Origin: Aureispira sp. CCB-E
Lineage (GTDB): Bacteria; Bacteroidota; Bacteroidia; Chitinophagales; Saprospiraceae
NCBI RefSeq assembly: GCF_031326345.1
Contig: NZ_CP133671.1
Coordinates: 5,518,001-5,582,000 of the forward strand
Direction of reading: 5' to 3'
DNA length: 64,000 bases
Shown: one piece after another, positions 1,208 to 25,722 of the stretch
Layout of the letters: the number at the start of each line of letters is the position of its first letter
How positions within the stretch are numbered: the first letter of the stretch is position 1
Notes under the pieces: generated by a model
What the model saw: the letters and a program-made list of their open reading frames with translations, nothing else
Databases searched by the model: none
What the model was told of the DNA's origin: nothing
Made by a program: the position numbers and the translations under genes

Positions 1208-1621
1208 TTATAAATGGCGATCAATAATACCTTCCTCCATCAAAACAATCATCAAAATAGGGGCAGGAATATCGCCATCCCAATTGTACAAAATATCGCC
1301 TTCTACTTCCTCGCCCATCCTCAACAAACCATTGGGCCAGTTGCAAATGACATTATTAGAGGGCGAACTACCTTCTACTAATTTATTGTTGTGAAAGTTG
1401 TAAATAATATCGCCCGATTTCTGGTTGCCAACACGCAGATTTGTTCCATCCCAATTGTACAATACTTTATTGAACTGCGAATTCCCTTCTCGAATGGCAG
1501 CACCGTCAAAATTATACGCTACTTCTCCATACGGAGCGTTTCCAATAATTAGCTTTTTCCCATTCCAATTGTAGATGACTTTGGCTGTATCGGCACTACC
1601 TTTTTTTATTTTAGGATTCAT
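1208..1621 (-). CDS. Small protein of tandem 19-residue YNWDG repeats
   Basis: A 137-residue protein made almost entirely of five exact-length 19-residue repeats plus a partial sixth, with consensus (V/I)(I/L)YN(W/F)(D/N)G-x2-(L/I)-x-x-GN-x4-(G/N). Each unit has one aromatic Y-N-W/F step and one G-N turn, which suggests a regular beta-repeat or solenoid-like structure. There is no signal peptide or membrane segment, so it is probably cytoplasmic. The last 15 residues (LMEEGIIDRHL end) leave the repeat. It converges with the VWA gene and runs in the same direction as the nucleoside hydrolase upstream (130-nt gap). I do not recognise the family; function unknown. Confidence 0.75.
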   Translation of the reverse strand: MNPKIKKGSADTAKVIYNWNGKKLIIGNAPYGEVAYNFDGAAIREGNSQFNKVLYNWDGTNLRVGNQKSGDIIYNFHNNKLVEGSSPSNNVICNWPNGLLRMGEEVEGDILYNWDGDIPAPILMIVLMEEGIIDRHL

Positions 1622-1751
1622 CTTTATTTTTTTAATTTCTTGATGTCTGAGTACTCAGGTTACTTTACTAAGTGCTTTTCTATCTCTTATAATTCATCGT
1701 TACCCCATCACTTTGTTCCTGCCTTTGGACTAAAAAACACTAAAATCTAGT

Positions 1752-2705
1752 TTAGGGAATTGCCAAGAAGTCTGCTTTAAATTGAGTAAAAAGGTATTTA
1801 TAAAACACTTCTTTATCAACATCTACAGCAATTTTCACTCGTCTACTATTGGGAGAATTGCTCAACAATGTCTGCCCTGCATTAGGAGGGCGAACCACAA
1901 CTTCTGCTTGAACGTCTTCTACTACAAAATAATGCTCTAAGGCAACATAACTTGTTGCTAGAATATCCCACATATAATAAATATAGTGATAACTTGGGAT
2001 ATTATCGACTGTCAAGGCCCAAAATTGTGCCGCCAAGTTGGAAAGTTCATACTTAGCTTGTTTCGCCAACTTGGATAAAAAAGCCTTGTCAACAGGAACA
2101 TGATTGGTAACATCCAGCGGAATTAAAATCAATGGTAATTCTAATTCAAAAAGCTTTTGTGCGTGAATGGGATCCCAATAAACATTCCACTCGGCAGTGC
2201 CATTGTGTTGGTAGGTTTGAACATTTCCAGGCGTTCTAAACGCTCCCCCCATCCAAATAACTTCTTTAATTTTTGTTGCTATGCTAGGTTTTTGCTCTAT
2301 TGCCAAAACAAGATTGGAACAAGGACCTGTCATAATAATTTTAACAGGTGCTTCTGCTGCCTCTAAACTCGCAATCATCAAATCAACTGCCGTTGGTAAA
2401 CTATAAGGATCTGGTGAGGGAGGTAAATTGATTAGCATAGGCAATGAATTAACAATCTCTGGTCTAGCCCTCCATTCACTAGGAAAAGCATTGACTCCAT
2501 TAAACGTTCCTCTACCAATAGGGATGTGTTCTTTTTGAGTCATTTGCAACAACTTGTAGGTAGACTCTATGGCCGGCTCCAAAAAGCAATCTGCTGGAGT
2601 TACAGTAATCCCAATTAGTTCAATATTAGGCATTGTTAGTAAGAGTAAGACAGACAATAAATCATCTATACCACCATCATGATCCATCAATACAAGTTCC
2701 TTCAT
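1752..2705 (-). CDS. Inosine/uridine-preferring nucleoside hydrolase family protein
   Basis: A nucleoside N-ribohydrolase fold protein of normal length (317 aa). The N-terminus carries the calcium-binding signature as MDHDGGIDD (Asp8, 10, 14, 15), a variant of the usual DxDPGxDD. TGPCSNLVLAI near residue 127 matches the TGPLTNLA motif, and WMGGAF...PGN...AEWNVYWDP matches the substrate-ribose segment with its conserved E-x-N. The C-terminal HDPLA motif appears as WDILA (near residue 246): the metal-binding Asp is kept but the His that helps leaving-group protonation is Trp, so base specificity may differ from classical enzymes. Expected role is purine/pyrimidine salvage by hydrolysing ribonucleosides to ribose and base. 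It appears monocistronic. Confidence 0.9.
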   Translation of the reverse strand: MKELVLMDHDGGIDDLLSVLLLLTMPNIELIGITVTPADCFLEPAIESTYKLLQMTQKEHIPIGRGTFNGVNAFPSEWRARPEIVNSLPMLINLPPSPDPYSLPTAVDLMIASLEAAEAPVKIIMTGPCSNLVLAIEQKPSIATKIKEVIWMGGAFRTPGNVQTYQHNGTAEWNVYWDPIHAQKLFELELPLILIPLDVTNHVPVDKAFLSKLAKQAKYELSNLAAQFWALTVDNIPSYHYIYYMWDILATSYVALEHYFVVEDVQAEVVVRPPNAGQTLLSNSPNSRRVKIAVDVDKEVFYKYLFTQFKADFLAIP

Positions 2706-2821
2706 CTAGTTTTTTTCTTAACGTTTTAGCATTTTTTGACCTCAACTCAATGAATTGCAAGCAGATTGGTCTTATTTCGCCTCTAAAATCAAAAAAAATC
2801 AGAACTATTCAGACTATTTGA

Positions 2822-3182
2822 AACATTTTCTTTTATAAAGAGTATATTGTTGTGGTTTATAGTTTATTAAAAATATAATAAAACCTAACCTCTTAATACC
2901 ATTACTTCGTAAAAAAAATTATATCAACTTGATTATCAACAAACCACGAAGTAGTAGCGCAGCTAAGTGCTATAATACAACACCCTATTTTTAAACTATA
3001 TCAAATCAACAATCCGTATAATTCCATACTTTTTTGTGCCAATCATTACGATAAATAGTACAACCATTTAACATTATTCTGTTGAAACCACACAGTAGCA
3101 GCGAACCAAGCTCACGAAGTAAATCGTATCAGTTTAATGTTTACCTAATTAATTCACTTTTTAAACTCTAAACACTTTAATT
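2822..3182. repeat. Intergenic spacer with two dispersed-repeat fragments
   Basis: Non-coding 360 bp. It holds two fragments of the dispersed family seen elsewhere in the window: TTGATTATCAAC followed by CCACGAAGTAGTAGCGCAGC (about 2929-2966), and CCACACAGTAGCAGCGAAC followed by CACGAAGTAAATCG (about 3090-3129). I see no ORF or RNA gene. Promoters for the genes either side must lie here but no clear TAnnTTTG box stands out. Confidence 0.6.
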
Positions 3183-3665
3183 ATGTCTAAACTATTTTCA
3201 ATCACTTTACTAATTTTAGCATTTTCTCTTTTAAACTCTCAATCCGCAGAAGCCCGTAGAGGGGGTGGATTCTTTAGCTTTGGAGGAGAAGCAATGGCTA
3301 AAGTCCAAGACTTTCCTGACACAGAACAATTTCAGATGGACGATGGTACTTATGTTGATGCAGGTTGTATTTACAAACAAGTGACTATTCTCTTTATTCC
3401 TGTTTGGAATTATGACATTCGTTGGTGTGGCTATACAGGTGAGGACGATAGTTATGTGATGATGACAAAAGAAGAATTGGACGTTCTTGCAAAGGAGGCT
3501 GATATTACCTTACCAGAATCGCCATCCCTATCTTTTTGGCACTCTATCGGAGGTAAATTACTTTTTATCGTTGTAATTGGAGGACTTATTGCCTATGGCA
3601 TTTTTTCTTCAGATGATGAAGAGGAAGAAGAAGCTCCTAAAACAGAAGAAAAACCTGTGGAGTAA
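3183..3665 (+). CDS. Small exported protein with C-terminal membrane anchor
   Basis: A 160-residue protein with a Sec-type signal peptide (residues 1-24, ending SAEA), then an RRGGG stretch, a short domain with two Cys (the Cys pair in AGCIYKQ and IRWCGYTG could form a disulphide), a single transmembrane segment near residues 122-142 (GKLLFIVVIGGLIAYGIF) and an acidic tail SSDDEEEEE. The topology suggests an exported N-terminal domain held at the inner membrane with a short acidic cytoplasmic tail. A strong terminator follows directly, so it is a single-gene unit. Family not recognised. Confidence 0.75.
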   Translation: MSKLFSITLLILAFSLLNSQSAEARRGGGFFSFGGEAMAKVQDFPDTEQFQMDDGTYVDAGCIYKQVTILFIPVWNYDIRWCGYTGEDDSYVMMTKEELDVLAKEADITLPESPSLSFWHSIGGKLLFIVVIGGLIAYGIFSSDDEEEEEAPKTEEKPVE

Positions 3666-3720
3666 GTTTAAGAGCCTGTTTAAAATTTAGGCTCTAATTA
3701 CAAACAGATATAGATACTTG

Positions 3721-3752
3721 CCTCATCAGCTATAAAGTTGATGAGGTTTTTT
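3721..3752 (+). terminator. Rho-independent terminator
   Basis: An 8-bp perfect stem CCTCATCA/TGATGAGG (3721-3728 with 3739-3746) is followed by six T residues, 55 nt after the stop of the small membrane protein. Confidence 0.85.
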
Positions 3753-3921
3753 ATTTAGATTTTTCTTAACAATTTCTTTCCCATCCTATTTTAAAATCAT
3801 CCCGTTTTCTAAATCAAATTACCAAGAGCTTGTTTTAAAATGCGCATTGTACAAACTAGCAAACTATTAATTTTTTTGACAACCAATAGTTTCTATCACC
3901 AAAAAATTTAAACTACAAAAA

Positions 3922-7912: not shown

Positions 7913-8338
7913 CTAACAATTGTTTTTAATCATTGAGGTGATGTTTAAATTCACCTGTCTCTTATAACTGTATTCATCCATCAATTTCTTCACCAAAAGA
8001 ATACCCAAGCCACCTACTTCACGATCTTCTAGGGGGATAGATAGATCTGGTTCAGGTGTATCAAAAGGATTAAAAGGTATTCCTGCATCGGTCAATTGAA
8101 TAATTAATTTTCCAGTTGTGAACAGCTCTATTGAAATATCAATCTCGTGTTCGTCATCATCGGGAAAGCTGTACTTAACTATATTGGATAACAGTTCGTC
8201 TAACACAATATTTACCTTTACCATAATTGTTTCAGGAATATCATACTGTATCGCAAAAGTTTCAAACGCACTAATTGCACGTTGCACTTCCTCTATGGTG
8301 TTTTTAATAATAATTTTTTTTGAATGTATCTCCCCCAT
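7913..8338 (-). CDS. HATPase_c anti-sigma/switch kinase, RsbW-like
   Basis: 141-residue GHKL ATPase domain standing alone, the size of RsbW/SpoIIAB. The N box is VLDELLSNIVKYSF (about 46-59), the G1 region is LTDAGIPFNP and the G2 region GGLGILLVKKLMDE. It starts 3 nt after the PP2C phosphatase gene and lies near the STAS gene, giving the kinase, antagonist and phosphatase of a partner-switching module. Such kinases phosphorylate the STAS protein and bind a target when the STAS protein is phosphorylated. No sigma factor is encoded nearby, so the output partner is unknown. Confidence 0.9.
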   Translation of the reverse strand: MGEIHSKKIIIKNTIEEVQRAISAFETFAIQYDIPETIMVKVNIVLDELLSNIVKYSFPDDDEHEIDISIELFTTGKLIIQLTDAGIPFNPFDTPEPDLSIPLEDREVGGLGILLVKKLMDEYSYKRQVNLNITSMIKNNC

Positions 8339-8341
8339 TGT

Positions 8342-9172
8342 TTATTCTTTTATTTCAACACACAAAGCGGTTATATCGTCAAATTGTTCTTCTCCTCGTT
8401 CGAATAGTAATATATCCATGACCAATCGCTCTACTGTATCCTTTACATTTTTGAAAGGTCGCTCTAAGGATTGGCACAACCGAGTTTCTGAAAACAATTC
8501 TAAAGCACTGTTATGTGCTTCGGTAATTCCATCGGTATACGCAAAAATCACATCTCCCACCGACAAGGAGATGGTTGATTCTCCATACGTTATATCTTCC
8601 ATTGCAGCCACTACAGGACCATGCAAGGTGGACAACTTTATCAAGTTGCCTTCTTTTTGGCGAATAAAAGTAGGGTTGTGCCCTGCATTTGTATACACCA
8701 TTTCTTTTTTTGCTAAGTCAATAATTCCCATAAAAACAGTCGTAAACATGTAATTAGGGTTATTGGTCGCCATTTCTTGGTTCACATGACTCATAATACT
8801 TGCAGTAGAAAAATCTGTTGCTGCTCTAGACTTTAACAAAGCCTTGCCAACAGCCATCATAAACCCAGCAGCTACTCCTTTTCCTGACACATCTCCTACT
8901 ACAATTCCTAAATGAGTATCATCTAACAAATAATAGTCATAAAAATCGCCACCAACCTCTCTTGCCGAGATTAGTTTTGCATACAGTTCAAAATCTTTTC
9001 GTCCTCCAAAATCAGGGTGGCTCATTGGCACCATATTCAGTTGAATGTCTTTGGCTAGATTTAGTTCCGCTTCCATTCGAACCTTTTCTTCCTTCAGTAG
9101 TACAATTTCCTGCTCCTTTTGAGCCAAGATATTGTTTACCTCATCAGATTTATTTGCTTCTTTTCCCATCAT
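8342..9172 (-). CDS. PP2C/SpoIIE-type serine phosphatase, RsbU-like
   Basis: 276 residues: a short N-terminal coiled coil (about 8-40, EKEEKVRMEAELNLAKDIQ-like) leads into a SpoIIE-type PPM phosphatase. Metal-binding Asp sit in AREVGGDFYDYY and GDVSGKGVAAGFMMA; further motifs are YTNAGHNPTF and IFAYTDGITEA. It should dephosphorylate the STAS protein encoded just upstream (53-nt gap) and so reverse the RsbW-like kinase. There is no sensor domain, only the coiled coil, so its activity is probably set by a binding partner. The ATG-ATG at 9172 is the only reasonable start. Confidence 0.92.
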   Translation of the reverse strand: MMGKEANKSDEVNNILAQKEQEIVLLKEEKVRMEAELNLAKDIQLNMVPMSHPDFGGRKDFELYAKLISAREVGGDFYDYYLLDDTHLGIVVGDVSGKGVAAGFMMAVGKALLKSRAATDFSTASIMSHVNQEMATNNPNYMFTTVFMGIIDLAKKEMVYTNAGHNPTFIRQKEGNLIKLSTLHGPVVAAMEDITYGESTISLSVGDVIFAYTDGITEAHNSALELFSETRLCQSLERPFKNVKDTVERLVMDILLFERGEEQFDDITALCVEIKE

Positions 9173-9225: not shown

Positions 9226-9558
9226 TTAGTTAAAATTAGTCACGGCTTCGTCCAACGTTTTCTTTACATCCAAAATTTGACTAAACCCTGAAATGTCCAA
9301 AATTTCTTGGACAACGTTATTCGCATTACAAATTCTAAACAACCCACCCGATGCTTTTAACTTTTTGGCTGTACCCAAAAAAACACGCAAGCCTGCACTA
9401 CTCACAAAAGCCGTTTGTTCAAGATTAAAAATAATTTTTTGATTATTTTCCAAATACTTGTTTACTTCTATCTCTGCTTTGGGGGCTGTTCCTGTATCTA
9501 GTTGACCGATAAAATCTAAAATCAACATATCGTCTTTCGTTGTACTTACAATATCCAT
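9226..9558 (-). CDS. STAS-domain anti-sigma factor antagonist, SpoIIAA/RsbV-like
   Basis: 110 residues, a single STAS domain. The phosphorylation segment is QTAFVSSAGLRVFLGTAKKL (about residues 47-66), with the target Ser in SSAGLR. It begins 10 nt after the CheR stop and is followed by the phosphatase and kinase of the partner switch. Being co-transcribed with cheR suggests that the switch is tied to chemotaxis or motility rather than to a general stress sigma factor. Confidence 0.92.
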   Translation of the reverse strand: MDIVSTTKDDMLILDFIGQLDTGTAPKAEIEVNKYLENNQKIIFNLEQTAFVSSAGLRVFLGTAKKLKASGGLFRICNANNVVQEILDISGFSQILDVKKTLDEAVTNFN

Positions 9559-9568
9559 TTCTTAAGTA

Positions 9569-10420
9569 TTAAGTATTATTTTTATAATTCAAATTCTTCC
9601 TATAAATTCTAGTTGCTGCACAATATAAGGTAAACATTTCTTTAGATTGATATGGAAGCATGTCATAATAACCTATTATAAAAAACCCATCATCATCTAA
9701 TGCATCATAAAAAAGCTTTAACACCTTCATTTTTAAAACACTATCAAAATATAGCATTACATTTCTACAAAAAATAATTTTAAAAGTTTCTTGCATTTCG
9801 TCCTGTACTAGGTTGTGCCGCTGAAATCTAATATGTTTTTTTAGTTGATTCACAACTCGAAAACTACGCTCCTCTTTAGAAAAATAACGTTCTACATCCC
9901 CTTTTGGATTGTATAAAGCATAAGATTTGGCACATTTGTTCCAAATGATATTGCTATAGCTGCCTTCTATTGCTTGGGCAAGTGCTTTAGCACTCAAATC
10001 TGTTGCCAGTACTTTTGACTTGTGCAACATAAAGTGCTCTTTTAAAACAATCGCCATAGTATAAATCTCCTCTCCTGTCGAACAACCCGCATGCCAGATA
10101 GTTAGTTCATCTTGATAACCAATTTTTTTGAGGACATCTGTTTTCAATTTTTGCCACAAATCGTAGTTTCTAAAAAACTCTGTCAAATTAACCAGCAACT
10201 CATCTATATAACTTACTATTAAGGACTTGTCTCTTAGCATTTGCCCCCATAAACCCAACATAGAATCTAAGTCTTTTTTAGCAATTAATCGAACAAGTCC
10301 TCTTTTTAGTGACTTTTGCTCGTAACTCGTAAAGTCTAATCCAAAACGAGTTTTTACTGCTGTTGTAAAAGCATTTAATTCCTCATCGGTTATCTGTAGT
10401 CGTTTAGGGTGTTCTGCCAT
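9569..10420 (-). CDS. cheR: Chemotaxis protein methyltransferase CheR
   Basis: 283 residues, the normal CheR length. The all-helical N-terminal domain (1-~85) is followed by the SAM-dependent methyltransferase domain: IWHAGCSTGEEIYTMAI (SAM-binding motif I), VLATDLSAKALAQA and IIFCRNVMLYFD, the CheR signature. It uses SAM to methylate glutamates of chemoreceptors and would act on the receptor encoded at the head of this operon. The gap to the upstream CheC-like gene is 243 nt and contains a dispersed repeat; the gap to the STAS gene is 10 nt. Confidence 0.95.
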   Translation of the reverse strand: MAEHPKRLQITDEELNAFTTAVKTRFGLDFTSYEQKSLKRGLVRLIAKKDLDSMLGLWGQMLRDKSLIVSYIDELLVNLTEFFRNYDLWQKLKTDVLKKIGYQDELTIWHAGCSTGEEIYTMAIVLKEHFMLHKSKVLATDLSAKALAQAIEGSYSNIIWNKCAKSYALYNPKGDVERYFSKEERSFRVVNQLKKHIRFQRHNLVQDEMQETFKIIFCRNVMLYFDSVLKMKVLKLFYDALDDDGFFIIGYYDMLPYQSKEMFTLYCAATRIYRKNLNYKNNT

Positions 10421-10663: not shown

Positions 10664-11272
10664 CTATTGTCCTTGAGCACTAAGTTGTTTGATATCATTG
10701 ATAAAAGGCTCATTCATAAACCATAAAAACATAGGACTAAACGACTTACCTTTAGCCGAAAAATTGGTTTTAAAATTGATCACATGAGATTGGTTGTTCA
10801 AGCGTCTCTGTATAAATACTTCAAAAGTACTTGGATCAATATGACTCAATTGAGGTACCGAACCGTGCATTTTTCGTTTCAGTAAATTAGCAAACTGAGT
10901 AATAACCGCTGCTGCAATGATATTATCAACCTCTAACAAGATAGCATCTTTCATAGATTCAAATAGCACGGGATCTTTAATTACTTCAGGAGGCAAAGCA
11001 GCCTTTTGTAACATCTCTGCTTCCTCTTCTGTAAATACCAAACAACAAAATCCCTCTAATTCTCCAACCACCTCTGTTGTCAACAAATAAGCATTTCCAG
11101 TACACCTTAATTTTAAAGGCGTTTTATCTGCAATTCCTAAGTTGTTCACTCCAATCTGCTCAACGACGATGGGTTCTTTCATAAAGAAAGAAAGTGTCTC
11201 TGCGGCACTACTCAATCCTTGGTTAATAATAGCTTCAGCAGTTTGCATTTCTGCGTTGTTAAAAACTTCCAT
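10664..11272 (-). CDS. CheC/CheX-like CheY phosphatase family protein
   Basis: 202 residues of the CheC-like fold. GLSSAAETLSFFMKEPI near the start resembles CheC's GLSNAATALS. The active-site signature E-x2-N-x22-P is present exactly (E-V-D-N, then 22 residues to the P of HGSVPQL). The upstream D/S that should sit four residues before the Glu is Ala, with an Asp one residue earlier. CheC/CheX remove phosphate from CheY-P; this set has no CheZ, so this is the best candidate for signal termination. It begins 22 nt after cheA. Confidence 0.8.
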   Translation of the reverse strand: MEVFNNAEMQTAEAIINQGLSSAAETLSFFMKEPIVVEQIGVNNLGIADKTPLKLRCTGNAYLLTTEVVGELEGFCCLVFTEEEAEMLQKAALPPEVIKDPVLFESMKDAILLEVDNIIAAAVITQFANLLKRKMHGSVPQLSHIDPSTFEVFIQRRLNNQSHVINFKTNFSAKGKSFSPMFLWFMNEPFINDIKQLSAQGQ

Positions 11273-11294: not shown

Positions 11295-13094
11295 TTATCC
11301 TAATGCTGCGATGTTGGTACCAATTCGTTTTTCTCTAAATAAATGTGAAAGAATACTAACAATATCTAGTACCAAACACATTCTCCCTGTTCCTAGTATT
11401 GTCACTCCACTAAATAGAGCAACTTTGTCAATAGGTGGAGGCAATTTTTTCTCTACAATTTCTTTCTGTTGCATCAACTTATCTACCACTAGCCCAACCA
11501 TTCGATGATTGTAGCTAACAATGACGATATCCAAGTTTGGATTTCCCTCTATTTCATCAAAGCGTTTGTACAAACTTCCTTTCTCTTCTATTTCCTTCAT
11601 GGTTTCCATTTCAAACAAATCTTGCAAAAAGACAATCGATATTGTCTTGCCCAAATAAGTAGAAATCAAACCTGTATTAATCTTATGTATTTCGTTTTTA
11701 GGCATCGAAATAACTGCTTCTGTATAAGCCAAAGCAATCGCAAATTCTTGTTGGTTCAACTGAAACAACAACGCTGCCTTTACAGCCATAGAAGAAGGCA
11801 AACCGAGTATAAACGTAGTCCCTTTGCCCAATTCCGTTTCAATCGAAATTTTTCCACCTATAGATTCTACTGCCATTCTAACCACATCCAATCCTACCCC
11901 ACGTCCAGAGATTTCCGTAACTACTTCGGCATTTGAAAACCCAGGCTCAAATAAGCACAGTAAAATTTCCTCTTTGGAAATAATTGGAGCGTATTCTTTT
12001 GGAATCAAGCCTTTTTTTATCGCCTTCTGTTTAATTTTATCTACATCAATCCCGTACCCATCGTCACTAATTTCAATATAAACTGTATCCTTTTCATTTC
12101 TAGCCCTCAATGTCACCACACCTCGTTCAGGTTTTCCCAATTTGAGTCGCTCCTCTGGTGGTTCTATACCATGTCCAACAGAATTTCGAACCAAATGCAC
12201 CAAGGAATCGCTCATTGTTTTTAACACATTACGGTCAATCTCACTCTCTGTCCCTTCCAGCACCAAATCTGCTTTTTTGTTTTCAATAACCGCTGCATCC
12301 CTCAATACTCGATGAAACTTATTAAACAAGAACCCAACTTGCACCAAGCGAACATCCATGACACTATATTGCAAATCAGATGTCAAGCGGTGTAAGCGTG
12401 CCAAATCACTATTAATCCCTTTTTCCTCCAGCCGTTGAGCAATTAAAGTATCCTTCTCAATAATCAACTCCCCGACAATATTTAGCAACTCATCCAATTT
12501 TCGAACAGGCACCTGGACCATATCCGATAGGATGATTTTATGTCCTGTCTGTTCCAACTCATCGGATTCATCCTCATCATCACCTTCTCCCTCTTCTGTT
12601 GCTCCTATTACTGCCGTACTATTCTCTGTATTTGTCTGCTCTTCTGTATTACTCTCTTCTTTATTTTCTGTCGTTTGAACGGTTGTGGATTCATTTTGAG
12701 TCTCGTAATACGCCTTTGCCTTTCGCAGGGCAACCTGTAATTTGGTACGAATTCCTTTATAACGAACAGTAGCACCTGTTTTTACAGCTTGAATTAATTC
12801 ACCCAAGACATCGTTGGCTCTAAACAAAGATTGAAACAACATAGAATCTAAGCTCATGCGTCCCAACTTCACCTCATTAAAAATATCCTCCATTACATGG
12901 CTCAACTCAGCAATCGCATCAAACCCCATCCCCATGGCATTGCCTTTGAGCGTATGTGTTATTCTAAAAATGGCGTCAATAGCAGATCGGTTTTGGTTAT
13001 TTTTTTCCAATTCCGTAAATAGTCGATTGAGTTCTTCATAACTCTCCTCGGCTTCTGCCAGAAACATTTCCTTATATTCCTCTTCTTTTGCCAT
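11295..13094 (-). CDS. cheA: Chemotaxis histidine kinase CheA
   Basis: 599 residues with full CheA order: HPt domain (1-~105) with phospho-acceptor His47 in ITHTLKGNAMGMGF; an acidic Thr/Glu-rich linker (~140-180) with no obvious P2 domain; dimerisation helices (~185-250); a HATPase with VRNSVGHGIE, DDGYGID and ISGRGVGLDVVR (~300-415); and a CheW-like regulatory domain (~425-590). The apparent lack of a P2 CheY-docking domain means phosphotransfer to CheY and CheB would be direct. It lies between cheB and the CheC-like gene. Confidence 0.96.
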   Translation of the reverse strand: MAKEEEYKEMFLAEAEESYEELNRLFTELEKNNQNRSAIDAIFRITHTLKGNAMGMGFDAIAELSHVMEDIFNEVKLGRMSLDSMLFQSLFRANDVLGELIQAVKTGATVRYKGIRTKLQVALRKAKAYYETQNESTTVQTTENKEESNTEEQTNTENSTAVIGATEEGEGDDEDESDELEQTGHKIILSDMVQVPVRKLDELLNIVGELIIEKDTLIAQRLEEKGINSDLARLHRLTSDLQYSVMDVRLVQVGFLFNKFHRVLRDAAVIENKKADLVLEGTESEIDRNVLKTMSDSLVHLVRNSVGHGIEPPEERLKLGKPERGVVTLRARNEKDTVYIEISDDGYGIDVDKIKQKAIKKGLIPKEYAPIISKEEILLCLFEPGFSNAEVVTEISGRGVGLDVVRMAVESIGGKISIETELGKGTTFILGLPSSMAVKAALLFQLNQQEFAIALAYTEAVISMPKNEIHKINTGLISTYLGKTISIVFLQDLFEMETMKEIEEKGSLYKRFDEIEGNPNLDIVIVSYNHRMVGLVVDKLMQQKEIVEKKLPPPIDKVALFSGVTILGTGRMCLVLDIVSILSHLFREKRIGTNIAALG

Positions 13095-13185: not shown

Positions 13186-14229
13186 TTATGCCAAGCAACT
13201 GACCAAAAAGGCAGCAATTTCATCCAAGTGCACCACTTGCTTTACAGCTTGATTTTGAACCGCAGCTTTGGGCATTCCATAAACAATACATGATGCCTCA
13301 CTCTGCGCAATTGTATAACTTCCAGCATCTTTCATTGCTTTCAAGCCAATCGCGCCATCTTTTCCCATCCCTGTCAATACTACCCCTATTGCTCTTTCTT
13401 GATAAGCTTTTGCTACAGAAAGCATCAAACCATCAACAGACGGATTGTTATAAGCCAAAAATTCTTGCTCTGTTTTTCCAAAAACGTACTTTTTTCCTCT
13501 TCGTTCTACGGTCAAATTTACATCTCCTGGTGCCAGATAAACATTTCCAGCCTCCAACACTTCTTTTTGCTCTGCCACTCGAACATTTAAAGGCGTCAAT
13601 TGATTCAAACGATCTGCAAATGCTGGAACAAAATTAGCAGGCATATGCTGTGCAATAACAACTGGAATTGTCAAATTCTTAGGCAGTTGCGTCAGTATTT
13701 TTTCTAAAGATCGAGGTCCTCCAGTCGAAGCGCCTAAAACAATACAGTCATAAGAAGCTTTGCTATCGAACGAATGCTCGTGAATGTTTACAGGTGTAGG
13801 CTCGTCCCGCACCTCTTCCAAATCAACCGTACTCGCCACCTTTATTTTCTCTATTAAATCCTGTTTTACTTCATCCATATTAACCCGATTCTTAGCGGGT
13901 TTATTTAGGTAATCAATAGCTCCTAATTCTAGACCTTGCAGAATAGGATTCATATCAACATTACCAATAGAAGATAAAATAATAATAGGTGTAGGACAAT
14001 GCTCCATAATTTCAACAACACCATAAATACCATCGTACTCTCCCATATTGACGTCCATTAAAACCACATCAGGCTTTAATTTTTGCGTCAACAAATAAGC
14101 TGTTTTGCCGTTATTAGCTTGTCCAATAACATGAATGTCAGGATCAGTATTAATAATATCGTTGATTAGGATACGCATTAGAGCAGAATCATCTGCCACC
14201 AGCACCCTAATCTGTTTTTTCTCGTTCAC
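13186..14229 (-). CDS. cheB: Chemotaxis methylesterase CheB
   Basis: 347 residues: a receiver domain (1-~120) with acidic pocket Asp13/14 and phospho-acceptor Asp59 in VVLMDVNM, then the methylesterase domain with the Ser-His-Asp set in LGASTGGPRSLE, IAQHMPANF and GMGKDGAIG. It removes methyl groups from receptor glutamates and opposes CheR. The start is GTG at 14229; the next in-frame ATG would delete the first receiver strand. It follows cheY by 11 nt. Confidence 0.95.
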   Translation of the reverse strand: MNEKKQIRVLVADDSALMRILINDIINTDPDIHVIGQANNGKTAYLLTQKLKPDVVLMDVNMGEYDGIYGVVEIMEHCPTPIIILSSIGNVDMNPILQGLELGAIDYLNKPAKNRVNMDEVKQDLIEKIKVASTVDLEEVRDEPTPVNIHEHSFDSKASYDCIVLGASTGGPRSLEKILTQLPKNLTIPVVIAQHMPANFVPAFADRLNQLTPLNVRVAEQKEVLEAGNVYLAPGDVNLTVERRGKKYVFGKTEQEFLAYNNPSVDGLMLSVAKAYQERAIGVVLTGMGKDGAIGLKAMKDAGSYTIAQSEASCIVYGMPKAAVQNQAVKQVVHLDEIAAFLVSCLA

Positions 14230-14240
14230 GATGCCTGAAT

Positions 14241-14609
14241 TTATTCTTGCATTTCTTTATCAATAACCTCTAGCAAACTCTCTGTCGTAAAAGGCTTAAC
14301 GATATAAGCAGCAGCACCCAAACTCATCCCCTCTTGTATTACAGAATCTTGCCCCACAGCACTAATCATAATGACTTTAGATGGAATATTTTCATCTTCT
14401 TTTAATACTCTCAAAATATCTGTACCAATCATATCTGGCAAGATATTATCCAAAGTGATTAAATCTGGAAGTAAATCCAAAGCCATATCAATTGCCGATT
14501 CTCCATTGGCAGCCTGTCCCACAACTTCGTACCCAGCTGCTGTCAAAGCAGAATTAATCATCGTCCGCATATACAGGGAGTCGTCTACAATTAAAACTCG
14601 TTTACCCAT
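14241..14609 (-). CDS. cheY: CheY-like response regulator
   Basis: 122 residues, a single receiver domain: acidic pair Asp9/Asp10, phospho-acceptor Asp54 in LITLDNILPDM, Thr/Ser switch region MISAVG and Lys in YIVKPF. It is the diffusible output of the CheA pathway in this operon. Its target is not encoded here; in gliding Bacteroidota it would not be a flagellar switch, and no fliM-like gene is in the window. Confidence 0.93.
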   Translation of the reverse strand: MGKRVLIVDDSLYMRTMINSALTAAGYEVVGQAANGESAIDMALDLLPDLITLDNILPDMIGTDILRVLKEDENIPSKVIMISAVGQDSVIQEGMSLGAAAYIVKPFTTESLLEVIDKEMQE

Positions 14610-14681: not shown

Positions 14682-15215
14682 CTATGAATAAGAAGTTTTA
14701 ACACCTTCTGATTCGATCAACTTAACCATATCAATCAAAATAATCATTCGATCTCCTACATTAACAACACCGACCAAACAACTTGCATCTAAAGAAGAAT
14801 ACTGAATCAAAGTAGAAGCTTTATCAATATCATCAACTTCAATCGTCAACGTATTGGGCACTTCCTTGACTAGAATTCCCACTTTGAAAGCCTCGTTCTC
14901 GACGACCAACGTATAATTTTGAGCTTCCTTAGCCTCCAAGCCATCTCCCAAGCCAAATTTTTGCTCCAAATCCATAATGGCGATGATATTGCCCCGAATA
15001 TTGGCAACGCCCTTGATATAAGGAGGTGTTTGAGGCATTTTAGCCACACGAGGAGTCAAAACTACCTCTTTAATTTGGTCTATCGGAAGCCCATATTCTT
15101 CTCCAGCCAATTTAAAAATAATCAACTGCATTAACTCCGACTGTTCTTTGGCTTTTTGATGATTTTCTGCCTCCCGCTTCACATCATCTATAGTATATTC
15201 TGTTTTGTCAGACAT
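14682..15215 (-). CDS. cheW: Chemotaxis coupling protein CheW
   Basis: 177 residues: a charged N-terminal extension of about 27 residues, then the CheW SH3-like domain with LIIFKLAGEEYGLPIDQIKEVV, MPQTPPYIKGVANIRGNIIAIMDL and LVGVVNVGDRMIILIDM. It links the receptor to CheA. It begins 32 nt after the receptor gene. Confidence 0.95.
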   Translation of the reverse strand: MSDKTEYTIDDVKREAENHQKAKEQSELMQLIIFKLAGEEYGLPIDQIKEVVLTPRVAKMPQTPPYIKGVANIRGNIIAIMDLEQKFGLGDGLEAKEAQNYTLVVENEAFKVGILVKEVPNTLTIEVDDIDKASTLIQYSSLDASCLVGVVNVGDRMIILIDMVKLIESEGVKTSYS

Positions 15216-15247: not shown

Positions 15248-17611
15248 TTATTGCAATTTAAACTTAGAAATGCTTTCTTGAAGTTGATTTGCTACATTAG
15301 CTAAGTCTTCGCTAGTAGCAGTTACTTCATTCATACCTTGACTTAGTACTTTACTAGAGCTAGCAACCTGCTCTGTTCCAGAAGCTGTTTCTTCTGCTAC
15401 AACAACAATTTTTTCTATATTTTTAGCGGTAGCATGAATAGAATCTTTTTGACCTTCGGTAGCTTCCACAATTTCTTTGGACAAGTCCAATGTTTCGTGA
15501 CTTGCTTTTTCTATACTTTCAAATACTGATTGGGCTTCTTTCGAAGCTTGCATTCCACTCTTTACATTTAGCTCCATGCTATCGATTGCTTTCGAAGCAA
15601 CACTAATATCTTTTTGAATTTCGCGAATCACTTTTTCAATATCCACAGCTGATTTTTTCGAACCTTCTGCCAATTTTCTAATTTCTTCCGCTACCACGGC
15701 AAAACCACGTCCAGCATCACCAGCACGAGCCGCTTCGATGGCTGCATTTAATGCCAATAAGTTCGTTTGAGCAGCGATATCGGTGATAACACTCAAAGCA
15801 CTAGCGATTTCTTCTGAACGTTCAGACAATATTTCGATAGAATCAGACGTACTGACCGCAGAGTCTTGAATTTCGTTCATACTATTAGCCACTAGCTTAA
15901 TCGTAGACAAACCTTCCGAAGAGTTTTTCTGTCCTTCTAAAGCAGATTTGTTAATTAATCCAGCTTTCTTAGCCATAGTATCAACAGATTTTAGCACATT
16001 GTCCATCATTTTGCTTGCTTCGTCTGTTTGTTGTGCCTGCTGTTGGGCTCCTTCTGCCATTTGTTGAGTGGCGGAAGCTACTTCTTGAGTCGTATTCTTC
16101 ATTTCCTCCCCTTTCACTAACATTTCCTCAGCGGAAGCAGCTACTAGGTTTCCTATTTGAGAAATTTGCCCCATCAAAACATTGATACTATCAATCGCAA
16201 CGTTTAGTTCATCTCCTAAATTTTTGATATCACCTTCTATAAAAGAATCGAAACGTTCTGTCAAATCTCCTTTGGCAAGTGCACCTACAATATCACTAAT
16301 TTCCATAATAGGCATAGCCACCGACTCTAACAATAAGTTAACAGAACTTGCCAGTTCTTTCCAGTCACCAGTTGCTTTACTTGCATCCAGTCGAGCATCT
16401 AATTTTCCTTCTTCTCCCGCTGATACAATAACCTTATTAATTTCATACAAAAATTGCTTCTGAGGAGTTATATCAGTAGCTATTTTAACTACTTTTTCAA
16501 CCTCCCCTCTTTTATTTTTAACAGGAGCATAGATTGCTTGAATCCACAAGGGTTCTCCACTCTTTTTAAACCTCTTAAAATCAGCACTTTGACTTTCTCC
16601 TGCTCTTAAATCTTCCCAAAAACGCTTGTAATTTTCAGAATCAGCATAGCGCTGTTCCAAAAACACTTGATGATGCTCTCCTATCAAATTATCACTATCA
16701 TCATACCCAAAGAGATGTAAGAAATTAGCATTGATATCTAATATTTTTCCATAAGGATCAAACTCAATTCGAGCAAAAGAACCATCTATAGCTGTTTTTA
16801 GATTCGCAGCTTTTAAGGCTTCTTCACGTTCCTCTGTGATATCGGTTGCAATTTTGATAATCCGAATAACAGAACCATCTCTACTTAATAATGGCGTATA
16901 AGAAGCTTGCACCCAAACAACATCACCATCTTTTGTTTTTCGCTGAAAAACACCGTGTTGTGCAATTCCATTTGCCAAATCCATCCAAAACTGTTCGTAT
17001 TCATCAGACGATTTATATTCTGTTTCAACAAAAACTGAATGATGTCTACCTACTATCTCGCTAGGATCATCATACCTCATTATAGAGGCAAAATTAGTAT
17101 TGACATCTAATATTGTTCCATCTCTGTCAAACTCGACTCTCCCAAAAGAACTATCAATCGTTTGTTGTAGTAAAGTTGTGTAATTATTTTCGTTTCCAGA
17201 CATCATATTTTGGATTTGATTTTCATCGACTTGATTAATGTTATCTATTTTATGTGAAGATAGGACATCCTCTTTGGCTTCTAATACCAAATCTATAATA
17301 TTTTCAACTAGATTACTATCTATATTAGATGCATCCAGTGCCATATCCAAATGACCTATAAAAGCGTTAAAGTGAGAAACTTGAATTTCTAGGTGAGCAT
17401 GGGCTCGCTGGATTTGCTCCCCCATTTTATAAGTCTCTTCTACCAACAAAACTTCTAAAAAATTGACAATTTTTTCTTTTAGCCAATCAATATTTATTGC
17501 CTCAAAAAACGGAAGTAATTCGGTGTCGTTCAGGATACGTTCATACCAACGATCAACAACCTCTACTAATACCGATTTTCCTCCAATTTCCTCTAATAGT
17601 GTGTTTTCCAT
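15248..17611 (-). CDS. Soluble chemoreceptor: truncated haemoglobin - PAS - PAS - MCP signalling domain
   Basis: The frame extends to a TTG at 17650, but the ATG at 17611 ([11 protein letters not shown]) is the better start and gives 787 residues. Residues 1-~115 align with group-I truncated haemoglobins: [17 protein letters not shown] (Tyr at B10), LPFFEAI (CD1 Phe), and RAHAHLEI...HFNAFIGHL, whose first His fits the proximal haem ligand. The E11 position, Gln in mycobacterial HbN, is Ile. Two PAS domains (~148-260, ~270-385), a HAMP-like stretch with [11 protein letters not shown] (~430-485) and an MCP domain with the [19 protein letters not shown] tip (~613) follow. There is no membrane segment, so it is cytoplasmic. 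It heads the che operon and likely senses O2, NO or redox state; haem binding is inferred. Confidence 0.9.
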
Positions 17612-18240: not shown

Positions 18241-20007
18241 CTAGTTAATTTCTTGAAAACTCATTTCATAATGTGTCCCTTTTTGAGTCAAATTTCGTTT
18301 AATTTCGCCTCTAAGCTGTTTGGCTAAATTATGGATTAATTTAAGCCCTAAAGAGTTGGTTGTTTTGAAATTTACATCTCTAGAAAACCCCTTTCCATTA
18401 TCGCCTATATACAGCACATAATTGGGGCGTTCTAAGGCTTCTAGACGAATATAAATAGCCCCTTTTTGATCTCCTTTTAAACCATACTTGAGTGCATTGG
18501 TAATAATTTCATTAATCAACAACCCAAGAGGTATAGCTGTATCAATATTTAGCTTTATGTTGTTGGCTTCTATAGTCCACTCAATACTATGATTCGCACC
18601 TTTCATTGACAAAATCAAATAGTGCATCAAAGCTTCCATGTATTGAGCATAACCTATGGTAAGAAAATCTTCAGACTGATACAAGGTTTCATGAATCATA
18701 GCCATCGTATTGATCCGATATTGACTCTGCTGAAAAAGCACTTTGGTTGCCTCTTCATTGATGGTATTGGCTTGCAAACTCAGAAGACTCGTAATAACTT
18801 GTAAGTTGTTCTTAACTCTGTGATGAATTTCTTTTAGAAGCGTCTCACGTTCCTTGATAATTGTTTTAAGTTTTTGAGCTGTTTCTTTTTCATTGGTAAT
18901 ATCCTTGCTGTGTGAAGCATAACCAATTGGTGTTCCTGCATTATCCTTAATTAACTGTACAGACAAAAAGGCTTCAAAGGTAGTTCCATCTTTCCGCAAT
19001 TGACGAATTTCTCCTGCCCACATTCCTGTATCAAGAATGGCTTGAATAACGGCTTCTGTTGTATGGCTTTCTTGGCTATTAAATACATCCACACTTTTCC
19101 CAATCAATTCATCTCCTTCATAACCATACAATCGATTGGCAGCAGGGTTTATATACTGTACAATTCCTTCTAAATTAGCAAATGTAATGGCATCCCAATT
19201 TTGAGAAACAATGTTTTCAAAGACACTCAAATCTTTGAGCAATACCTCTTTCTCACCAATAATTTGCTTTAGCTTTTCTTTGGTTTCTTTTTCCTTTGAA
19301 ATGTCCTTACTATGTGATACATATCCAGTTGGCACCCCCATACTATCCCGAATCAACTGTACAGACAAGAAAGCATTAAACAAGCTTTTGTCTTTTTTGA
19401 CTTTGACCAATTCGCCCGACCAAAAACCTGTTGCTTGCACAATTTTACTAATTGCATCGGTTTGGTGTATTTCTTGATTGTTCAAAATAGAAACATGTCG
19501 ACCAATCAATTCATTTTCATCATAACCATACAAACGATTGGTTGCTGGATTGATATATTGTATGACACCATCCAAATCTAAAAACTTGATGGAATCCCAG
19601 TTCTGAGAAACAATTCCTTCAAAAACACGCTTTTGAGACTTTAGCTCTACCTCTTGCGTACAGTCTCCTACAATCAAAAGCATATATTGCCCCCCATATT
19701 TGTCTTTATCATCTATTAGATTCAGGCGAACTCGATACCATCGCTTGCTGTTTTGGTCTGGCGAACTGTATATAATTTGATTGTTTTCTTTGGTTTCAAA
19801 AACAGCTTTTATTTTAGCAACAACATCTATTTTTAGACCATCTGGAAAAATCTCATCAATTGCTCTACCTAAAAATTCATCTGGAGGAATCCACAGCGAA
19901 CGCTCATCTGCAACCCAATATTTTTTAAATATTAATTTTGAATCGATCAAAAACACGATATCATCTAAAGACTTTAGAATAGAGTTCAATTCTATCATAA
20001 CATACAT
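18241..20007 (-). CDS. PAS-PAS-PAS sensor histidine kinase, HisKA_2 type
   Basis: 588 residues with no membrane segment. One divergent N-terminal PAS (~1-115) and two closely similar PAS domains (~125-240 and ~255-375; both contain IVSQNWD and INPA-NRLYGY) precede a HisKA_2 phospho-acceptor motif, KEIHHRVKNNLQVITSLLSLQ, with His395/His396. The C-terminal HATPase has LLINEIITNALKYG and IGDNGKGF. HisKA_2 kinases often pass phosphate to stand-alone receivers; CheY in the adjacent operon is one possible partner but this is speculation. The two inner PAS domains look like an internal duplication. It appears monocistronic. Confidence 0.9.
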   Translation of the reverse strand: MYVMIELNSILKSLDDIVFLIDSKLIFKKYWVADERSLWIPPDEFLGRAIDEIFPDGLKIDVVAKIKAVFETKENNQIIYSSPDQNSKRWYRVRLNLIDDKDKYGGQYMLLIVGDCTQEVELKSQKRVFEGIVSQNWDSIKFLDLDGVIQYINPATNRLYGYDENELIGRHVSILNNQEIHQTDAISKIVQATGFWSGELVKVKKDKSLFNAFLSVQLIRDSMGVPTGYVSHSKDISKEKETKEKLKQIIGEKEVLLKDLSVFENIVSQNWDAITFANLEGIVQYINPAANRLYGYEGDELIGKSVDVFNSQESHTTEAVIQAILDTGMWAGEIRQLRKDGTTFEAFLSVQLIKDNAGTPIGYASHSKDITNEKETAQKLKTIIKERETLLKEIHHRVKNNLQVITSLLSLQANTINEEATKVLFQQSQYRINTMAMIHETLYQSEDFLTIGYAQYMEALMHYLILSMKGANHSIEWTIEANNIKLNIDTAIPLGLLINEIITNALKYGLKGDQKGAIYIRLEALERPNYVLYIGDNGKGFSRDVNFKTTNSLGLKLIHNLAKQLRGEIKRNLTQKGTHYEMSFQEIN

Positions 20008-24786: not shown

Positions 24787-25722
24787 ATGGAAATTGGAGA
24801 TTTAGTCCGACATAAGGTGTCTAAAGTAGAAATGACCGTTATGCGGTTAATTGGAGATGAGGAAAATGCAGCTTTTGAATCTATTGATCGTCGTATGCAA
24901 ACCAAAGGTTTTGGAATGGGCGATCCGACTTGTATGTGGTTTGAAGGTAGTATCCTGCATTATGGCGTCTTTAAAGCAAACGAATTGGATGTCTTGGTAT
25001 ACAAAGCCGCTGGTGCAGCTGGCATCGGTGCTGATGACGAGGACTTAGGCGATTTAGATCTAGATATTGATGATTTAGACCTTGACTTAGACGATTTGGA
25101 TTTGGATTTAGATGATCTTGATTTAGACGATGACTTAGATCTGGATCTTGATTTAGACCTTGATCTAGATGATGATGATTTGGATTTAGACTTGGACTTA
25201 GACGACGATCTAGATTTGGATGACTTGGACTTGGATGATTTAGACCTTGATTTGGATGAGGACGATGATTTAGACTTAGACTTAGATCTAGACGATGATC
25301 TGGATTTAGATGATTTGGATCTAGATGATGATGGAGACGATTTTGACGATTTGAATATCAACTTTGGAGATGATTTAGATGACTTAGACTTAGATGATTT
25401 GGATTTAGACGATGATTTAGATCTGGATTTAGAGGACGATACCGAGGAAGAGAAAGCAGCGGAAGCTCCTGCTAGTGACGACTTAGACTTTGACCTAGGG
25501 GACGACTTAGATTTGGATTTGGATGAGAACGATAACTTAGACTTAGACGAAAGTGATTCAGAAGAGGAAGATGACAGTCTAAATCTTGACTTAGACGATG
25601 ACTTAGATTTAGACGATGACGACAGCTTAGATCTTGACTTAGACGATGACTTGGATTTAGACGACGATGACAGCTTAGATCTTGATTTGGATGATGATGA
25701 TGATTTAGATTTGGGTTTTTAA
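24787..25722 (+). CDS. DUF2158-like domain fused to a long Asp/Leu repeat tail
   Basis: 311 residues. Residues 1-~80 form a diverged YodC-like domain: EIGDLVRHKVSKVEMTVMRL, TKGFGMGDPTCMWFEG. From about residue 83 to the end the protein is almost only Asp and Leu in DLDLDD/LDLDL patterns, broken by a short E/K/A stretch (EEEKAAEAPAS) and a few Asn/Ser, ending LGF. The tail is extremely acidic with regular D-L alternation. Codons vary widely (GAT/GAC; TTA/TTG/CTT/CTA/CTG), which argues that the amino-acid pattern is selected. A roomy AAGGAG precedes the next gene 17 nt downstream, so these two are probably co-transcribed. Function unknown; multivalent cation binding or nucleic-acid mimicry are possibilities. 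Confidence 0.85.
   Translation: MEIGDLVRHKVSKVEMTVMRLIGDEENAAFESIDRRMQTKGFGMGDPTCMWFEGSILHYGVFKANELDVLVYKAAGAAGIGADDEDLGDLDLDIDDLDLDLDDLDLDLDDLDLDDDLDLDLDLDLDLDDDDLDLDLDLDDDLDLDDLDLDDLDLDLDEDDDLDLDLDLDDDLDLDDLDLDDDGDDFDDLNINFGDDLDDLDLDDLDLDDDLDLDLEDDTEEEKAAEAPASDDLDFDLGDDLDLDLDENDNLDLDESDSEEEDDSLNLDLDDDLDLDDDDSLDLDLDDDLDLDDDDSLDLDLDDDDDLDLGF

Follow-up and report, generated by a model that had tools for sequence, protein, structure and literature searches.

A soluble Aureispira chemoreceptor with an N-terminal truncated haemoglobin, the putative haem gas sensor of a single che system

Globin-bearing and PAS-bearing chemoreceptors

Chemoreceptors that carry a truncated haemoglobin are rare, and the architecture has been known since 2018. 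In the accessible text of their survey, Sharma, Parales and Singer (2018) reported seven proteins combining PAS, Bac_globin and MCPsignal in 8,075 genomes, among them Cc_4972 of Corallococcus coralloides, and proposed O2 sensing for them (PMC6194562). The seven were assigned there to Deltaproteobacteria, Gammaproteobacteria, Nitrospirae, Alphaproteobacteria and Planctomycetes, and none to Bacteroidota (PMC6194562). A 2026 review, in the part available, repeats this account and calls HemAT of two species, GCSBh and Atu1027 validated globin receptors for aerotaxis (PMC13401364). BdlA and McpS of Pseudomonas are described in the available texts as chemotaxis transducers with two PAS domains (PMC8694187, PMC9769550), which are regarded as FAD candidates (PMC8694187).

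Here we analysed a window of 64,000 nucleotides from Aureispira sp. CCB-E, which encodes a soluble chemoreceptor of 787 amino acids. From N- to C-terminus it consists of a group-1-type truncated haemoglobin, a variable linker, PAS1, PAS2, a HAMP-like region and an MCP signalling domain (coordinates in Table 1). Thus, the three Pfam families of the Sharma et al. receptors (PF01152, PAS, MCP) were found together in one soluble protein, and Cc_4972 is likewise soluble and encoded in an organised che cluster according to the accessible text (PMC6194562). C. coralloides is credited there with 21 MCPs and 12 systems, against a single MCP match and a single CheA in this genome; the Aureispira protein further differs by its two PAS domains and by a syntenic relative in which a PAS replaces the globin. 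HemAT and other globin-coupled sensors resemble it in the N-terminal globin on an MCP, the distal Tyr and the proximal His. However, HemAT is of the 3/3 protoglobin type and runs from globin through linker to signalling domain without PAS, as far as the available texts describe it (PMC13401364, PMC1457004). BdlA and McpS share the two PAS domains and lack a globin. The closest solved globin, by sequence as well as by fold, was HbN of M. tuberculosis (1idr, 2gkn), which differs in standing alone, in a Gln at position E11 and in a Gly-Gly pair after helix E. Multidomain truncated haemoglobins were reportedly treated by Hade et al. in 2017.

The literature searched, mostly outside subscription papers, yielded no case from Aureispira or other Bacteroidota, no such exchange between two genera and no experimental truncated-haemoglobin taxis sensor. 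Added here are a receptor that alone matched MCP in a genome with a single CheW and a single CheA match, its spread over five of nine Aureispira genomes, and a syntenic exchange of PAS for globin. The most informative facts are two: the sole receptor found goes with the sole che system found, and in a related genus the position of the globin is taken by a PAS. In many bacteria numerous receptors blur the role of each one, which is eased by the single receptor match here. We consider it fairly probable that the protein is a soluble energy- or gas-taxis receptor, in which a putative haem gas sensor of PAS-to-globin origin feeds the sole CheA array. If haem binding proves true, this would provide direct evidence for a truncated haemoglobin as taxis sensor, as proposed from sequence in 2018.

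Domain layout and putative haem pocket

The receptor frame of 787 codons was read from its ATG; a TTG start 13 codons 5' of it was set aside, because the start codons of the orthologues align with the ATG. Using Pfam on the whole protein, Bac_globin PF01152 was found at residues 4-115 (E 4.6e-13), the PAS families in two stretches each (best 159-263 and 285-382), HAMP_2 PF18947 at residues 413-477 (E 4.9e-13) and MCPsignal PF00015 at residues 556-736 (E 1.1e-37), which places the protein among the MCPs. The signalling hairpin matched the PDB sequences 3ja6 and 2ch7 with E of about 7e-24. No transmembrane stretch was found in the receptor, its highest 19-residue Kyte-Doolittle mean being 1.4 versus 2.4 in the receptor at locus L042, which served as yardstick. 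The original prediction, a cytoplasmic chemoreceptor with a PAS tandem behind a globin, had read the feature correctly.

Table 1. Features of the receptor gene and of the che operon (window positions; boundaries of linker, PAS1 and PAS2 drawn by the authors)
Feature	Position	Strand	Evidence
Soluble chemoreceptor, 787 aa	15248..17611	-	ORF, ATG at 17611, end at 15248
Truncated haemoglobin domain, group-1-type, residues 1-118	17258..17611	-	PF01152, PDB, AlphaFold/Foldseek, tree
Tyr23 codon, position B10	17543..17545	-	Alignment with HbN and HbN mutants
Ile48 codon, position E11	17468..17470	-	Alignment with HbN and GlnE11 mutants
His71 codon, proximal histidine	17399..17401	-	Gap-free alignment with HbN His
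Linker, residues 119-146	17174..17257	-	Alignment
PAS1, residues 147-270	16802..17173	-	Pfam, PDB
PAS2, residues 271-395	16427..16801	-	Pfam, PDB
HAMP-like region, residues 396-480	16172..16426	-	HAMP_2 PF18947
MCP signalling hairpin, residues 481-787	15248..16171	-	PF00015, PDB
CheW	14682..15215	-	32 bases after receptor
CheY-type response regulator	14241..14609	-	Pfam
CheB	13186..14229	-	Pfam
CheA	11295..13094	-	Pfam, genome profile search
CheC-like (CheY-P phosphatase-like), weak	10664..11272	-	PF04509 E 0.0049, NF041093 E 2.9e-4, both below cut-off
CheR	9569..10420	-	Pfam
STAS-domain protein, anti-anti-sigma type	9226..9558	-	Pfam
SpoIIE-type phosphatase	8342..9172	-	Pfam
HATPase_c_2, anti-sigma-kinase type	7913..8338	-	Pfam

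The globin part alone scored 54.6 bits with PF01152 (cut-off 21) over profile positions 1-119 of 121. The HemAT-type family Protoglobin PF11563 reached 18.0 bits, under its cut-off of 25, and a globin-coupled sensor of this type was rejected on that ground. A search of PDB sequences up to an E of 1 gave 26 distinct chains, 19 of them with E <0.001; all 26 are haemoglobin, globin or cyanoglobin by name (one also myoglobin) or carry a truncated-globin gene name. First came HbN entry 2gkn, by its title the GlnE11Val mutant, with E 2.7e-12 and no gap across 115 residues. An AlphaFold model of residues 1-136 (mean pLDDT 78.9) had 2gkn as its top Foldseek match as well (E 5.5e-5, rmsd 4.8 Å). The best 25 Foldseek rows comprised HbN, other truncated haemoglobins, THB1/THB4 and the haemoglobins of Chlamydomonas eugametos and Synechocystis, with TM of 0.59-0.74 and rmsd of 3.9-5.2 Å, which indicates a 2/2 fold at a loose fit; over the 50 matches listed the rmsd was 3.6-5.3 Å, again a loose fit of the predicted fold. 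Since Pfam, PDB sequence and Foldseek matches agree, a chance similarity to globins was rejected. The original prediction had called the domain a truncated rather than a HemAT-type globin and had named a profile search and an AlphaFold model as checks; both were run, and the N-terminus fell inside the globins (PF01152) with the HbN mutant as nearest fold.

Within the truncated globins the position of the domain is less sharp. In a tree of 34 globins it lay on a fork of 16 rows that also holds HbN, L010 (a stand-alone globin from Saprospiraceae) and ten more; the support was 82/74, below the tool's mark of 95/80, and the groups of the remaining rows were unlabelled. The path was 3.44 to L010 and 3.47 to HbN, near neither. 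L010 was the best of 30 stand-alone loci (E 1.9e-22) when these were searched with a profile of the four Aureispira globins. Two glycine motifs, at AB and EF, we take to be a feature of group-1 truncated haemoglobins. The first of these is present as Gly10-Gly11 in the alignment with HbN, while the HbN Gly-Gly after helix E is replaced by Val-Glu. This replacement and the loose predicted fold are two departures from an ideal group-1 globin.

The pocket residues were named by alignment. Tyr23 aligns with a residue changed in 2gl3 (title TyrB10Phe GlnE11Val) and is therefore B10, and Ile48, aligned with the position at which 2gkn (GlnE11Val) departs from HbN, is therefore E11; Phe36, Leu44 and His71 we assume from the aligned HbN positions to be CD1, E7 and F8. 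Tyr23, Phe36, Leu44 and His71 were identical in all four distinct Aureispira globins, which are down to 58% identical (68/118) over the domain, and E11 is Ile in three and Met in one. Thus, the proximal His and the Tyr at B10 of a group-1 truncated haemoglobin were both found. The proximal His that had been predicted in the motif RAHAHLEI is the first one, His71, which all four distinct globins retain; genome G298 has Glu in place of the second. Comparison with three species gave dN/dS of about 0.13, 0.17 and 0.24, at a dS near saturation. The original prediction had also noted Ile instead of Gln at E11 and expected a ligand affinity unlike that of HbN. The difference in residue is real, yet Gln is not the usual residue among Bacteroidota truncated globins: 4 of 29 have it, and 19 of 29 have Tyr at B10, in a non-random draw for which the 117 genomes that matched PF01152 supplied their top-scoring loci, with L002 added (30 stand-alone loci scanned, L027 without match). 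A Tyr at B10 without a polar partner at E11 resembles some gas-sensor globins.

We are aware that a globin fold might serve as a dimerising or spacing module after loss of haem and gas binding. The missing Gly-Gly after helix E and the existence of a globin-free receptor body in the genomes G258 and G777 are consistent with this. However, the retention of the four pocket residues in 4 of 4 distinct globins amid variation elsewhere, and dN/dS values well below 1, argue against it, and we hold such a loss to be very improbable.

A single che system and its PAS-headed relatives

The receptor heads a same-strand series of genes for CheW, CheY, CheB, CheA, a CheC-like protein, CheR, a STAS protein, a SpoIIE phosphatase and a HATPase, spaced by 3 to 91 bases except that a wider gap of 243 separates cheR from the CheC-like gene. 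The positional counterparts of the CheC-like gene at loci L070 and L074 were without Pfam match. The nearest upstream gene (18241-20007), 629 bases from the receptor and on its strand, encodes a HisKA_2 histidine kinase with tandem PAS; the kinase at this position in G298, also of the HisKA_2 type, carries a single PAS. MCPsignal matched once in the genome, which is 99.93% complete, namely in the receptor, and the CheW domain matched twice, in one CheW and one CheA. From the gene neighbourhood and the absence of other CheW-domain matches, a partnership of the receptor with this CheW and CheA is predicted. The G+C content of the globin codons (0.35 versus 0.357 for the window) gave no sign of a recent acquisition with foreign composition.

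The space behind cheW varies. It measures 72 bases up to cheY in the window, while other Aureispira have additional ORFs there: four in L003 (8162-10388), one in L004 (7971-8393) and one in L070. The small ORF L070:8677-9090 matched DUF7793 with 31.6 bits (cut-off 26), and one L003 ORF tested stayed below the cut-off. G299, of the same species, has about 880 bases more than the window between its CheW and CheA matches.

Using the full protein in a search of genome contigs, three Aureispira loci were found, in CCB-QB1 (99%) and in two uncultured Aureispira (82%). Five of nine Aureispira genomes carried the receptor in full, and within the genus MCP and CheW matches were confined to these five. 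Three of them had no other MCP match; G298 had one additional MCP, of the CHASE3 type (L042), and G304 one of the order PAS-PAS-PAS (L041). The remaining four genomes (G284, G301, G302 and G303; 4.2-5.1 Mb) gave neither MCP nor CheW matches, indicating that chemotaxis was lost or gained within Aureispira as the tool draws the genus.

Beyond the genus, PF01152 was found in 117 of 298 genomes of the order sample, in frames of at most 270 amino acids besides the window's, and in 85 of 395 genomes of the overlapping phylum sample, in frames of up to 250 amino acids besides those of the window and of G564. The latter, a 577-aa frame without MCP match, was rejected as receptor fusion; its protein (L069:1250-2878, 542 aa) looks hydrophobic by eye ahead of a truncated globin at the C-terminus (PF01152 22.7 bits, cut-off 21) and is another kind of truncated-globin fusion. 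MCPs are themselves uncommon here: in the family 8 of 199 genomes gave any match, in the class 21 of 345, and several of these matches were weak. In a set of 19 genomes with clear MCPs, the five Aureispira had a globin in a frame of receptor size and the 14 others had none; this set was drawn without G733, G294 (over the cut-off only with frame neighbours) and ten weak-match genomes, one of which, G1050, also passed the cut-off only with neighbours. The globin part matched 37 records of the plasmid collection. The annotation at the match is group 1 truncated hemoglobin in 32 of them, four have no feature there and one record lacks annotation, and none of the 37 carried a chemotaxis-protein annotation. 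The survey of globin-MCP fusions covered Bacteroidota genomes. Earlier, the fusion had been described as uncommon, which fits both the seven proteins in 8,075 genomes given in the accessible survey text (PMC6194562) and its restriction to Aureispira in our Bacteroidota samples.

The closest counterparts without globin came from two Saprospiraceae genomes, G258 and G777, probably Saprospira, which have one MCP match each (L074 and L075, respectively) and no PF01152 match. G258 shares the che gene order of the window: upstream lies a SulP-type gene, then come MCP, CheW, a response regulator, CheB and CheA, followed by an unassigned ORF and two CheR genes. Between L074 and the window receptor an ungapped alignment of 640 residues (57% identity) starts at residue 148 of the latter and reaches its end, whereas no significant alignment was found in the first 147 residues; by Pfam the first domain of L074 is a PAS. 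Collinearity of the 640 residues together with a PAS in the place of the globin leads to the conclusion that the N-terminal sensor was exchanged. Two proteins that differ by one exchanged domain ahead of 640 collinear residues represent a natural experiment in how a receptor comes to read another signal.

The direction we infer from sequence comparison: a replacement of PAS by globin in the Aureispira line is the simplest reading. In the MCP tree, whose long and gappy rows were flagged by the tool, the Aureispira rows and those of G258 and G777, eight in all, group at 96/95, and L041 (G304, 1498-3828), a second receptor of the order PAS-PAS-PAS-MCP, branches closest to the globin receptors (84/84). 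The first PAS of L041 and that of L074 may be different domains. The fork that would polarise the exchange, joining G298b with Aureispira apart from G258 and G777, reached 53/8; because of this value the alternative stands that the globin may have been lost in the G258/G777 relatives. The receptors of G807 and G765 were rejected as close relatives due to long branches in the MCP tree and, by eye, different gene surroundings.

We tentatively propose, as a possibility rather than a likelihood, that the tip PAS of a sole chemoreceptor was replaced by a truncated haemoglobin in Aureispira, so that the whole che input became haem gas sensing, as an origin of globin taxis apart from HemAT and the Corallococcus type, with living relatives, probably Saprospira, showing the globin-free state. 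The other source would be gene transfer, by which the receptor would share its descent with the PAS/Bac_globin/MCP proteins of the Corallococcus type. Both have the three Pfam families, each in one protein, to judge from the accessible text of PMC6194562. Against this stands the part of the Aureispira receptor from residue 148 onward, collinear and 57% identical with the syntenic G258 receptor, so we judge such a transfer unlikely. An exchange within Saprospiraceae is therefore the reading retained.

Proposed signal path and output

How the globin might reach the signalling hairpin depends on the linker. Only 6 of its 28 residues were identical to G298, and in the alignment the linker of G300 has as many as 15 extra residues. 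In the AlphaFold model for residues 1-136, helix H extends to residue 135, with block pLDDT of 51 and 46, while a poor model of residues 1-400 (mean pLDDT 55.6) shows coil at 119-129; the two models conflict on helix H beyond residue 118. The variability in sequence and length argues against a rigid helix as signal carrier, and a contact between globin and PAS1 seems the more likely route.

Of the PAS domains, PAS1 matched best the PDB entry 3ewk ('Sensor protein', E 2.8e-11), followed by Aer (8dik, E 1.6e-6), and PAS2 likewise had 3ewk as top match (E 2.2e-9). We take 3ewk to be MmoS, both 3ewk and Aer to be redox PAS, and PAS1 and PAS2 to resemble the PAS of BdlA in sequence and to be of the BdlA/McpS kind. 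These matches bear on a further reading, in which the globin is an enzyme and the receptor reads its product or a redox state via PAS. NO dioxygenase activity is the role proposed for HbN, the closest solved relative in sequence and fold, and the presumed redox PAS matches would fit. On the other side, E11 is Ile or Met and not Gln, no reductase was found among the operon proteins scanned, and a single enzyme per receptor would arguably make a poor scavenger. We consider an enzymatic globin improbable, and prefer the sensor.

In the available text on E. coli Aer, the FAD contacts are His53, Arg57, Met69, Trp70, Asn85 and Arg115 (PMC9668731). Two of these six were kept in PAS1 and two of six in PAS2, in each case His and Trp, and a flavin in either domain is doubtful for this reason. 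The second (middle) PAS of L041 keeps five of the six.

We infer haem, ligand, signal path and output of the receptor as follows. Haem in the N-terminal truncated haemoglobin would bind O2, possibly NO or CO. The change in the globin, together with the state of the two PAS domains, would reach the MCP hairpin by way of the HAMP-like region, and the hairpin would set the activity of the single CheW-CheA array. CheR and CheB would adapt the receptor, and CheY would carry the result onward, most likely to the gliding motor, possibly to gene control by partner switching. Since the genome gave no further MCP match, every input of the che pathway would be integrated by this receptor. At its origin, the N-terminal PAS of a PAS-PAS-PAS receptor would have been swapped for a truncated globin in the Aureispira line.

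GldN, a part of the gliding and T9SS machinery, gave four matches over cut-off in the genome (G000:C1 at 862871, 1121460, 1130670 and 1450305), and PilT none; T9SS gliding is therefore the likely motility. The predator of the ixotrophy study is said to be Aureispira. The available text of that study mentions gliding and T9SS and does not name the genus.

The main rival to a gliding output keeps the sensor as proposed and lets the che system drive gene control through STAS protein, SpoIIE phosphatase and HATPase, a set whose presence in the operon makes gene regulation an alternative output. The three genes lie behind cheR in the same orientation, separated by 10, 53 and 3 bases, and their order is kept in G298. 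A SpoIIE-HATPase protein beside the G777 cluster, beyond SulP, slightly favours this rival, and a paper on T9SS direction ties CheY, in its accessible part, to the flagellar motor alone (mBio 2025, PMC12239597). Opposed to this, CheY, CheB and CheR form an adaptation set as usual for behaviour, and in G258 a second CheR, not STAS, follows cheR. Overall, gene control as the output appears somewhat unlikely to us, and gliding remains the preferred output.

The protein beside the G777 cluster (L075:15783-16973, 396 aa) unites SpoIIE phosphatase and HATPase_c_2, which are encoded by two adjacent genes in Aureispira. Elsewhere in the window, at 24787-25722, a gene made of imperfect tandem repeats of 15-48 bases encodes a protein of 311 amino acids that consists mostly of Asp/Leu repeats (DLDLDD).
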